NCBI RefSeq assembly: GCF_013249015.1
Contig: NZ_JABRPL010000001.1
Span: 792,318 to 856,317, forward strand
DNA from: Rathayibacter agropyri
Lineage (GTDB): Bacteria > Actinomycetota > Actinomycetes > Actinomycetales > Microbacteriaceae
Reading direction: 5' to 3'
DNA length: 64,000 nt
Part shown: one piece after another, positions 6,825-29,338 of the stretch
Numbering within the stretch: position 1 is the stretch's first letter
Layout of the letters: each line of letters begins with the position of its first letter
Translations under genes and position numbers: made by a program
Notes under the pieces: model-generated
Databases searched by the model: none
Seen by the model: only the letters and a program-made list of their open reading frames with translations
What the model was told of the DNA's origin: nothing

Positions 6825-6963
6825 AACAAACCGATGATACCGGCGCACCGTCCGCACGGCGGGTGCCCGACGTGTGTCGTCCGAAAGGGGGTCAGATTCG
6901 CGCCTAGATCACCGTCCCTTCGCGACTGCGCCACCTCATCAGACGCGGGCAGCGATTAGGGTC

Positions 6964-6992
6964 TTGCAGCGTGCAGATCCTTCCCTTATTTA
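6964..6992 (+). promoter_or_regulatory. Putative promoter of the rml/glycosyltransferase operon
   Basis: TTGCAG (6964-6969) and TATTTA (6987-6992) are separated by 17 bases and lie about 60 bases upstream of rmlA on the same strand, in the divergent gap between tsaC and rmlA. This matches a housekeeping sigma promoter moderately. No experimental support; other placements are possible. Confidence 0.35.
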
Positions 6993-7053
6993 CCGTCCGC
7001 AATGCAGTCCTCATAGGCCTGACTGGTGCAGCGCGCGCGGTCCGAGTCGGCGC

Positions 7054-7938
7054 ATGAAGGGCATCATTCTGGCCGGTGGCTCCGGCTCGCGGCTATGGCC
7101 GATCACCAAGGGCATCTCGAAGCAGCTGATGCCGATCTACGACAAGCCGATGATCTACTACCCCCTGTCGACGCTGATGATGGCGGGTATCGACGAGGTC
7201 CTCGTGATTACCACACCCGAGTACAACGACCAGTTCCGGGCGCTGCTGGGAGACGGGTCGAGCCTCGGGATGCGCATCGAGTACGCGGTCCAGCCGTCGC
7301 CCGACGGGTTGGCACAGGCGTTCCTGATCGGGGAGGACTTCATCGGCGACGATTCGGTCGCGCTGGTCCTGGGCGACAACATCTTCCACGGGACCGCGCT
7401 TGGCACGGCCCTGACGGCGAACACCTCCGTCGAGGGAGCCGTGATTTTCGCCTACCAGGTCGCCGACCCTCGAGCATACGGTGTCGTCGAATTCGACGAC
7501 CAGTTCCGCGCCGTGTCGATCGAGGAGAAGCCGGAGCATCCTCGGAGCACCTACGCGATTCCCGGACTCTACTTTTACGACAACGATGTCGTGGGTATTG
7601 CGAAGACGATCCTCCCCTCCGCGCGTGGCGAGCTAGAGATCTCGACGGTTAATGAGCGCTACTTAGAAGCTGGCACTTTAAACGTGCAGGTTCTCGACCG
7701 CGGTACCGCCTGGCTGGACACCGGCACCTTTGACTCGATGATCGAGGCGACGGAGTTCGTCAGAGTCGTGGAGCAGCGCCAAGGCTTCAAGATCGGCTGC
7801 ATCGAGGAGGTCGCTTGGCGCAACTCCTGGATCGACGACGCTCAGCTCGCCGAGCTGGCGGCTCCGCTCGCGAAGAGCGGCTACGGAGCGTACCTCCAGC
7901 GCCTGCTTGAACTCCCGGCCTCCACGATCGGACGCTGA
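7054..7938 (+). CDS. rmlA: Glucose-1-phosphate thymidylyltransferase
   Basis: Condenses glucose-1-phosphate with dTTP to dTDP-glucose, first step to dTDP-rhamnose and other 6-deoxysugars. The 294-residue protein opens with the nucleotide-binding motif [13 protein letters not shown] and continues with [19 protein letters not shown], both diagnostic of RmlA. Later signatures [10 protein letters not shown] and DTGTFDSM are present. The ATG at 7054 starts at the conserved MKGIILAGG; upstream in-frame codons are not conserved. It is the first gene of the plus-strand polysaccharide operon, followed by rmlB. Confidence 0.97.
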
Positions 7939-27047: not shown

Positions 27048-27083
27048 CGGGCTCACTCATGAGCGACGCGTATCACCAGCCTC

Positions 27084-29274
27084 TCACGCGAGGACGATGT
27101 AGGTGGCCTGGTAAGCCTCGCCGGTCGCTCCACTGCGTACCGGCACGGAAGCCGCGGTCGGATTCGTCGCTCCGACGGTGAAGCCCGTCTGTGAGGCAGT
27201 CACGTACAGGCCGAGCGCTTGCGTCTTGGCGTCAACCGGAGTCAGCACCACGGAGGGCACCGCGTCGTAGGCCCGCCCAAAAGTCACGCTAGCGACAGGT
27301 CCGCTCCGCGCCGCGTTGCTGCCAAAAGCGAAGCTCCCGAACATCGGTGAGGCCGGCCCCCGTCGCTACGGGCGCCGGCCCACCACCGGAAGCGGCGACC
27401 ATCGCCTCATCAGACCGCGTCGAAACGTGCCCGGCGATCATGACCGGCCCTCGGAGTGCGAAGACGCTTCCTCCCGCACGGCCGTCCCGCAGGAATGTTC
27501 CGCCGTCGTAGGGCCGGTCCGTCACTGACGGATCGATCACGACCTCCCCAGCAAAACCCGACTCGATCTCAATCGCAGCAGTCGCGGTTCGCAAGAAACG
27601 CGTCCCAACGAGGCTGACCGCAGATCCCGCTGCAAGCAGAAGGGACGGAAGCGCGGTAGGTGGGGTAGTCCCTTCCGGCAGATTCTGCATGATGACACCG
27701 CCGAGGAATGTGACGCCGCCCAGCTGATCGGCTGTGACGAACCCGGTCGGATCAACGTAGGCGAGGCGCCCCTGCGCCTCCTTCCCGCCATTCTGATTGT
27801 CTACGAACTGCTGTCGGTACTCGATAATCGGAGACGGCTGCCCGAGCACCTGCAGCGCGTGGAACACCACCGACGTCACATTGCCGATACGAATCAACGG
27901 CCCTTCGTTGAGAACGCCATTCCCGCTCCTCGCCGCCTCGACATGAAGGCCGACGCAGTCCAAGTACTCCGCGTAATCAGCATGAGCATCACTCCCAGCG
28001 GCGATCGCAAGAGCCGTATTGGCGCTCCGCTCGATTGTGAGACCGCGGAACTGGCAGAAGTTCGTTAGTCCACGCTCACCCAAGCGGATGATGACGGCGG
28101 CGTCGTTCGCGCTTCCGCAATTGTCAACGTAGACATCGCGCCACACGGAGTTATTCATCGTCCCGACATCGATTCCCGTTCTTCGAAACCGGAAGATCCG
28201 GACGGAGTCCATTCGGAACTCGAAGCCTCCACGGATGGCCAAGGCGACAGAATCCGAACCCGTTTTAGTCTCGGCTACTTTGTTGTAGCCATCGACGGTC
28301 AGGTTCGCGAGGGTGACTCCACCGCCCTGAACGGTAACCAGCGGCGAGGAAGCACCAGGAGCGGGGATAATGTTCGCGCCTCCGTAGCTGTGAACGTCAT
28401 CTCCCGGCAGCAATTGGTCGGGAACCGCAGCGTCTCGGCTCCGATTCCGATGAGGCTAGACCGTTCCGTGGCGAGCAGCGAGCGGACGGCGTACCGTCCG
28501 GACGGGGCGGTGATCGACATATGTTGGCGCGCGGAGAGATCGAGGGCAGCTTGAACCGCGCGGATATCGTCGGTGACACCGTCGCCAATCGCTCCGAAGT
28601 CGCGCAGCGACAGGCCGCCCCAGGGAACCCGGCGCGCGACCATATCGTCGAAGAGGAAGGAGCCCGAGGAGACGCCCTTGACGCCGACCGACACGCGCAT
28701 CACGGTCGCACGGCTCGGCCGTTCCTCCGCACGTGGCACAGTGAAGACGCCGTGGAACGCACGCCATGCATCCGAGACCTGTCCAGGATCGATGCTGACG
28801 AATGCCGAGTACGCGCGCAGGTCGCGGGAACCGGAGTAGTAAGAGACGCTCATGTTCACACTGGCGTCCTTGGCGACGCCTGAGACCTCGGTGGCTCTGA
28901 TCCAGATCTCCCCGAACCACAGTTCGCCGGGTGTGACGTCAATGAGTTGCATGCTGCTCGCCGCAGACTGCCCGCCGGATGCAACGACCCGAAGAGCTCT
29001 CGATCCGCTCCCCTCAGGCGCGGCATCATCGACGATGGCTGCGGCGCCTTGTCGATTCGGAGTCCATGTAATCTCACCCGATTCAAATTCAGGATCGACG
29101 AGTTCATTGGGTGCGAGGCTGCGTCGGCCGTCTGCCGCGGTCGTCGCGGCGCCGTCGGTCATTTGGGCCTGGGCAGTCGAACTCCATGTCGACGCTGCAA
29201 GAGTCACTCCACTCACAGTGAGGAAGCCTCTTCGGGTAGCGTTATTCCTGGATTTTTTTCTGAGTGAAGGTCAT
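27084..29274 (-). pseudogene. Exported pectate-lyase-type beta-helix protein, broken by three frameshifts
   Basis: Joined across frames, this encodes about 720 residues: start MTFTQKK at 29274, a twin-arginine signal RRGFLTVSGVTLAAS, a carbohydrate-binding-like module (about 40-195), the Pectate_lyase_3 entry motif LRDFGAIGDGVTDD, beta-helix repeats, and a lectin-like C-terminus with VTFGRAYDAVPSVVLTP. Three single-base indels, all at homopolymers, interrupt it: a run of seven T (plus strand, 29253-29259) inside the signal peptide; a missing base near 28420-28422; an extra base in the A-run at 27324-27327, where removal restores ELRFGSNAARSG. Either a pseudogene, a sequencing artefact, or (for the seven-base run) phase variation. 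It converges on lyase copy 2. Confidence 0.75.
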
Positions 29275-29338
29275 GCCGCATGATGGTAGCCAGGTGCGGT
29301 TCACCCGCCGCACCTCGTGTCGCGAAGCATCGTGCCCT

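Follow-up and report, generated by a model that had tools for sequence, protein, structure and literature searches.

A glycan island between prmC and tsaC

Genes for surface polysaccharides occupy the space between prmC and tsaC in a 64,000-nucleotide stretch (the window) of the Rathayibacter agropyri genome (contig NZ_JABRPL010000001.1, positions 792,318 to 856,317). Since tsaC starts at 6824 and prmC ends at 29339, the limits of this island are exactly 6825 and 29338, with 22,514 bases between the two genes. The tsaC reading from 6824 starts MARIYDCSVDTD, as do most relatives. An earlier interpretation of the letters alone (the sequence-only reading) had described a surface-polysaccharide island of 22 kb that splits a housekeeping block. 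This description is borne out: 22.5 kb of mostly glycan genes separates prmC from tsaC.

The housekeeping flanks, as far as atpB, are also as claimed. One side of the island consists of argS, lysA, hom, thrC, thrB, rho, prfA and prmC; the other side consists of tsaC, wecA, a small gene and atpB. NCBIfam cut-offs are passed by argS, lysA, hom, thrC, thrB, rho, prfA and tsaC (TIGR00057), and Pfam cut-offs by prmC (PrmC_N), the WecA-type PF00953 transferase and atpB. The small gene between wecA and atpB (4264–4662) has a sub-threshold Pfam match only.

Several features of a Wzx/Wzy-dependent locus are present in the window: Wzx and Wzy score above their Pfam cut-offs, together with several glycosyltransferases (GTs) and nucleotide-sugar genes (Table 1). 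The locus had been called complete-looking. This is correct for Wzx, Wzy, the GTs, RmlA and RmlB, but neither a priming transferase nor a Wzz-type protein was found within the window's island (6825–29338). The AT-richer core that had been noted exists in the window, where the guanine-cytosine (GC) content is 0.601 for the island, 0.686 for the remaining window and 0.557 for 18158–23430. It is not a general trait, because the GC content of the island lies above that of the flanks in four of 12 islands (G013, G014, G016 and G006; G and L numbers are our handles for genomes and loci).

Replacement of the core between close relatives

We searched 15 genomes of the genus, one per species. In the 11 genomes with prmC and tsaC on one contig, the gap is always between 17.4 and 31.1 kb. 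The seven loci that best match the PrmC of the window all belong to Rathayibacter (82–85% identity). G012, of the same genus, is nearest (93%).

Alignments anchored on prmC and tsaC reveal different clusters at the same junction in close relatives. The DNA of the window and of G012 is 88% identical over 4433–9007, to the end of rmlB. The next 15.7 kb (9008–24677) have no match, except for lyase 1, which matches the lyase of G012 at 66.8%. Similarity returns with lyase 2: identity is 88% over 24678–27409 and 86% over 29006–31681. Proteins of the flanks are 89–98% identical between the two genomes (WecA 98%, PrfA 98%). Hence, the core appears to have been swapped while both ends were kept.

Judged from these sequences, the prmC–tsaC island appears to be an exchange hotspot, where the units of near relatives are replaced whole while the flanks and rmlB stay alike. 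A hotspot had been suspected from the window, and both the comparison with G012 and the contents of the compartments (see below) support one in which cassettes differ between related species. Close relatives do not all share one cluster; their clusters differ. The pairwise distances of the flank proteins correlate with r between 0.81 and 0.88, those of rmlB with the flanks at only 0.52–0.65. This weaker agreement is expected if rmlB is also exchanged.

Two compartments around rmlB

All 15 genus genomes and the window carry rmlB. With rmlB as divider, the 16 genomes contain 32 compartments. Eight of these contain almost nothing (1.4 kb or less). The other 24 are filled by a unit, which in some cases is truncated where the contig ends. 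The filled compartments are uniform: exactly one Wzx is found in 24/24, exactly one Wzy in 23/24 (several Wzy labels being sub-threshold PF04932 scores plus membrane segments), NTP_transf_5 in 23/24 and PqqD in 22/24. Among the islands that are complete on one contig, the five with a single unit measure 17.4–22.5 kb and the seven with two units 26.1–31.1 kb.

In the window and in G011, the window's unit type (PqqD, NTP_transf_5–GT4, GTs and Wzx) lies to the right of rmlB, whereas in G004 it adjoins tsaC. The diverged GT at 12603..13622 matches the proteins at the equivalent position in the G011 and G004 units at 54% and 44%. Units apparently change sides of rmlB. In G013, two tandem rmlA–rmlB pairs separate the two units (L083 16075 to the start of L084), as expected from recombination at rmlAB.

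We consider it likely that the interval represents a single allele of a Rathayibacter locus at which cassettes for Wzx/Wzy-made surface polysaccharides are exchanged. The comparison shows an expanded prmC–tsaC junction with rmlB, often accompanied by rmlA, between a left and a right compartment. Either compartment is nearly empty or holds one unit, with one Wzx, about one Wzy, several GTs and, in most cases, a PqqD and an NTP_transf_5. In the proposed mechanism, exchange would occur by homologous recombination through wecA–tsaC–(rmlA)–rmlB on one side and lyase/prmC–prfA on the other. As an internal stretch of homology, rmlB would allow a unit on either side.

The junction outside the genus

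We searched 98 genomes of the class, and the best matches to prmC and tsaC share a contig in 94. The gap is at most 300 bp in 83 of these, 300–2000 bp in six and 3 kb in one (G095). It is 17.3 kb in G003, a Rathayibacter. In the remaining three genomes the matches are about 1 Mb apart, and there the best tsaC match may be a paralogue. Ancestral adjacency of the two genes, which the sequence-only reading had assumed, is therefore supported, and outgroups mostly have them side by side.

A second survey covered 80 PrmC loci, and 68 of these show both genes. Here the gap is within 170 bp in 22 loci, 170–1000 bp in 10, 1–3 kb in 24 and 3–8 kb in 11; the last locus, L070, is rearranged. The other 12 loci comprise eight from Rathayibacter or its kin (L001–L007, L010), two that end too soon (L060, L068) and two with large inserts, namely about 12 kb in L056 (L161, Leifsonia shinshuensis) and about 14 kb in L033 (L162, a metagenome-assembled genome of the Actinomycetales). 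In the 13 widest loci outside the genus, the interval from prmC to tsaC yielded no match to our own GT, Wzx, PqqD and NTP_transf_5 profiles, which diverged glycan genes could escape. One of these loci has an rmlB-like gene upstream of prmC. The junction thus accepts inserts in several genera, and a glycan island is observed in Rathayibacter alone.

The rearranged locus, L070, belongs to Leifsonia sp. CL147. A local rearrangement has placed tsaC and wecA across prmC from their usual position and on the opposite strand.

WecA and the priming step

All 15 genus genomes encode a PF02397 priming transferase outside the island. As far as seen, only G007, G008 and G017 encode one inside it as well. 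In G012, G006 and G013 the priming transferase opens a second locus, and is followed by a P-loop HprK-like protein that ends in PqqD, a Wzz-type tyrosine autokinase, a phosphatase and a dehydrogenase of the UDP-glucose/GDP-mannose type. The autokinase passes the TIGR01007 cut-off in G012, and the copies of G006 and G013 match the same relatives. Against TIGR04352 the HprK-like/PqqD proteins of the three genomes score 26.5, 25.4 and 26.7 bits (cut-off 200). Genes of the rmlC type also lie outside the island in 15/15 genus genomes, and beside an rmlA copy in 10/15. The second locus would supply the common steps of synthesis through its exopolysaccharide (EPS)-type priming transferase, HprK-like/PqqD protein, Wzz-type kinase, phosphatase and UDP-sugar dehydrogenase.

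The sequence-only reading had instead placed the priming step with WecA at the border of the island, a place that could reflect a functional linkage. The end of WecA does lie 0.9 kb from the border, and the protein is conserved (79–98% to the window). However, it lies beside tsaC in every surveyed PrmC locus in which both are visible, whether an island is present or not. Its placement is independent of the island and PF02397 primers exist outside it, beside a Wzz-type kinase in three of the four genomes inspected; it is thus unlikely that WecA primes the polymer. Going by gene content, WecA is probably not the primer of the island's polymer.

Among the PqqD matches outside the island, five of eight lie within 2 kb of a PF02397 transferase. 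One that does not (G017:C12:516081-516224) is a PqqD domain in an open frame of 666 residues.

The PqqD and NTP_transf_5 pair

The nearly constant part of the replaced cassettes is a pair of genes, which overlap by 4 bp in the window (PqqD-like gene 9081..9374 and NTP_transf_5–GT4 gene). The island of each of the 15 genus genomes contains PqqD and NTP_transf_5 domains. PF14907 (NTP_transf_5) has matches in 15/15 genus genomes; 22 of the 25 matches lie inside the island, and in relatives 22/25 score above the cut-off. PF05402 (PqqD) is above its cut-off in 10/10 chosen relatives and in 14/15 genus genomes, with G001 just under it. Family-wide, PF14907 is found in at least 21 of 150 genomes (a search that missed G003, positive in the genus search). 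Across the phylum our own profile found it in at least 12 of 396 genomes, including G003, with at most five candidates scored per genome.

The motifs K-G, DxD and DxDxH are invariant and the catalytic carboxylates intact in all 23 island copies. PqqD, NTP_transf_5 and Wzx show correlated divergence across islands. A sequence search of solved structures with NTP_transf_5 yielded nothing useful (best E 0.15). By fold, chains of MenT1 are the best match (Z 15.6, 178 aligned). The likeness extends to other nucleotidyltransferases of the Pol-beta type (ANT(2''), LnuA and FKRP), and includes the invariant DxD and the later DxDxH. Identity to these enzymes is 12–17%, and no member of known function was found in a Wzx/Wzy locus. 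In Pfam, PF14907 is listed as an uncharacterised nucleotidyltransferase.

MenT1 is a toxin. The pair could therefore be a toxin–antitoxin-like module that stabilises each cassette, and its occurrence once per cassette would be expected of an addiction module. We regard this explanation as very unlikely.

A different precedent is the lasso peptide pseudomycoidin. A review (PMC9266682) describes that PsmK phosphorylates a serine of the peptide and that the nucleotidyltransferase PsmN is needed for the hexoses on it. Our system resembles it in combining a kinase with a nucleotidyltransferase homologue, where PsmN and NTP_transf_5 are likened by that description and not by sequence. It differs in its context of glycan synthesis; no conserved precursor was detected close to the pairs in the islands, and the island genes scanned include neither a lasso protease nor a cyclase. 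The HPr-rel-A system (TIGR04352 kinase, TIGR04353 PqqD) is also similar: TIGR04352 is the best NCBIfam match of the second-locus protein, which has a C-terminal PqqD domain. Unlike HPr-rel-A, that protein scores 26.5 bits against a cut-off of 200, its PqqD is fused to the kinase-like part and the nucleotidyltransferase resides in a separate, variable locus.

A lasso or other system for ribosomally synthesised and post-translationally modified peptides (RiPPs) in the island was set aside, as no conserved precursor was found among 453 intergenic open reading frames (ORFs) of 20–90 amino acids (shorter or overlapping ORFs fell outside this scope). A 24-residue ORF near PqqD in G014 and G006 was discarded as a precursor; it is part of a stretch that is similar at the DNA level, and G004 lacks it. 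Ubiquitin matches to PqqD were dropped as chance, being repeat-summed with no passing single stretch in the top rows. The model of a fused protein from L001 (predicted local distance difference test (pLDDT) 67.5, predicted template modelling score (pTM) 0.58, low-confidence linker) allowed no conclusion on the docking of PqqD onto NTP_transf_5.

Tentatively, and as a possibility that we favour less than the exchange of cassettes itself, we propose that PqqD, NTP_transf_5 and the HprK-like/PqqD protein form an undescribed step of Wzx/Wzy assembly. PqqD, an adaptor domain of the peptide-binding type, would be common to the kinase-like and nucleotidyltransferase proteins, and a phosphate-linked group would be placed onto the nascent glycan, its lipid carrier or a protein, with one pair per cassette. 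The PsmK/PsmN precedent and the fold neighbours might suggest such a phosphate-linked modification. NTP_transf_5, helped by PqqD and perhaps together with the HprK-like protein, might add a unit-specific nucleotidyl, phosphoryl or glycosyl-phosphate group. Since the search for a precursor peptide yielded none, we prefer a glycan or a lipid carrier to a peptide as the acceptor.

Among the matches listed in the open-access literature, we recognised no work that ties PqqD to Wzx/Wzy loci (one Pantoea genome paper there, PMC11763638, holds pqqd, wzx and wzy) and no description of the Rathayibacter prmC–tsaC locus. The PqqD/NTP_transf_5 module is the new part of the finding; the hotspot itself is a known type at a new site, in a two-compartment variant.

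G004 and G006 have a second glycan cluster with its own NTP_transf_5, PqqD, GTs and an rmlB-like gene (L143 and L144, about 7–17 kb). PF14907 and PqqD matches also lie close together outside the island in G014.

Exchange, inheritance and mobility

Several observations weigh against a locus that exchanges uniform units. Inserts at the prmC–tsaC junction also occur in other genera, and the site may be no more than permissive. Neither NTP_transf_5 nor PqqD is present in the right unit of G013, the right unit of G015 has no recognisable PqqD, and two Wzy_C proteins occur in the left unit of G013. G004, G006 and G014 share cassettes; hence, the 24 filled compartments are not independent and the counts overstate independence. 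The locus is split across contigs in G001, G002, G004 and G005, where the pieces beside each gene were read and other parts remain unseen. Gene calls and the labels Wzx and Wzy come from our own scripts and profiles. The second locus was seen in three of the four relatives inspected, with a different arrangement in G008 (L160), and it is not visible within the window. We found no glycan chemistry for these strains. Finally, the case for recombination is indirect, and a single genome represents each species.

Alternatively, the island could be a glycan cluster inherited vertically in the genus, whose fast evolution produces divergence rather than exchange. A fixed position, rmlB in every genome and PqqD with NTP_transf_5 in each island agree with inheritance, which is nonetheless largely refuted by G012: the two sides are 86–88% alike, yet 9008–24677 have no DNA match save the lyase paralogue. 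The unit type of the window also recurs in G011 and G004, which are less closely related, and in G004 it has the opposite position relative to rmlB. Divergence alone is thus highly improbable. Least credible is that the island is a mobile element with an integrase or transposon of its own. The low GC content in the window, the large insertion between conserved genes and the inserts in other genera would fit this, but the window's island has no integrase or transposase among the genes scanned, no tRNA at its borders and no flanking direct repeats of at least 22 bp, and the same junction has rmlB inside in all genus genomes seen.

Comparison with known exchange loci

The cassette-exchange locus that we favour has well-known counterparts among capsule and O-antigen loci. 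The pneumococcal cps locus between dexB and aliA and the enterobacterial galF–gnd locus are also exchanged between anchoring flanks. They share with Rathayibacter the fixed housekeeping flanks, the replacement of whole Wzx/Wzy cassettes and the conserved rml genes. In contrast, the Rathayibacter site is prmC–tsaC, it has two compartments around rmlB and the common machinery is elsewhere. Nearly all units contain PqqD/NTP_transf_5, and many islands contain lyase- or hydrolase-like genes.

In these plant-associated actinobacteria, the junction provides a defined locus at which surface polysaccharides can be typed with constant primers placed in prmC and tsaC. These polysaccharides are likely phage receptors and plant-contact structures. 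The near-constant PqqD/NTP_transf_5 in replaced cassettes and the correlated divergence with Wzx point to an enzymatic step that the textbook Wzx/Wzy scheme lacks; the locus also makes PF14907 testable in a natural setting.

Polysaccharide enzymes and neighbouring features

Enzymes recognised by Pfam in representative islands are the PF14099 lyases of the window, BNR_4 in G012, a heparinase II/III-like protein in G013, beta-helix proteins in G003 and G014, GH5 in G015 and GH10 in G005. The large island proteins of G008, G007 and G017 have no informative Pfam match; such an enzyme is thus recognised in many islands but not in all. The lyases would act on the glycan of their own unit. A uronic-acid-containing polymer would fit the UDP-sugar dehydrogenase and the lyases alike.

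Table 1. Features of the window and the second locus of three relatives. Positions refer to the window unless a locus is named. AF2, AlphaFold2; TM, transmembrane.
Feature	Position	Strand	Evidence and remarks
WecA-type polyprenyl-P GlcNAc-1-P transferase	4704..5945	-	PF00953 5e-35; left flank, not island-specific
tsaC, threonylcarbamoyl-AMP synthase, left border	5949..6824	-	PF01300 1e-45; TIGR00057 over cut-off
rmlA, glucose-1-P thymidylyltransferase	7054..7938	+	TIGR01207 466 bits, over cut-off
rmlB, dTDP-glucose 4,6-dehydratase, compartment divider	8021..9052	+	TIGR01181 469 bits, over cut-off
PqqD-like small protein (RiPP-recognition-element family)	9081..9374	+	PF05402 4.8e-11, 43 bits, cut-off 23.4
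NTP_transf_5 nucleotidyltransferase (residues 1 to ~290) fused to GT4	9371..11506	+	PF14907 58 bits, cut-off 31.2; PF00534; AF2 pLDDT 80
GT4 glycosyltransferase	11503..12606	+	PF13692 54 bits
Probable GT4-like glycosyltransferase, diverged	12603..13622	+	sub-threshold Pfam GT matches only
GT4 glycosyltransferase	13583..14617	+	PF13692 31 bits, cut-off 27
Hexapeptide acyltransferase	14786..15340	-	PF00132 33 bits, cut-off 27
Wzx flippase	15403..16764	-	PF01943 52 bits, cut-off 28.2; ~10 TM segments
GT4 glycosyltransferase	16850..18070	-	PF00534 82 bits
Probable GT2-like glycosyltransferase	18158..19087	-	sub-threshold PF00535 match only; family of 5 in islands
Wzy polymerase (Wzy_C)	19084..20556	-	PF04932 63 bits, cut-off 31.7
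Tat-signal-like polysaccharide lyase 1, diverged paralogue of lyase 2	20977..23430	+	PF14099 46 bits, cut-off 29.9; N-terminal SRRSIFRG; repeat D1
Tat-signal-like polysaccharide lyase 2	24696..27047	+	PF14099 46 bits; 90% to G012; SRRTLVRG
Pectate-lyase-like gene, two overlapping frames (28299-29216, 27289-28413)	27289..29216	-	
prmC, right border	29339..30199	-	PF17827 65 bits
Second locus, G012	L157:6311-12557		beside thymidine kinase and mqo genes
Second locus, G006	L158:3104-9454		
Second locus, G013	L159:2025-8343		

Lyases 1 and 2 are tandem paralogues, and the 90% orthologue in G012 exists for lyase 2 only. The 1.3 kb separating them contain no called gene. The pectate-lyase-like gene may be frameshifted and decaying, or its two frames may reflect a sequencing error. 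Its match to G012 is confined to about 210 bp of the 5' end. A single-frame relative of its second piece (32%) adjoins prmC in G017 (L101:2271-3908).

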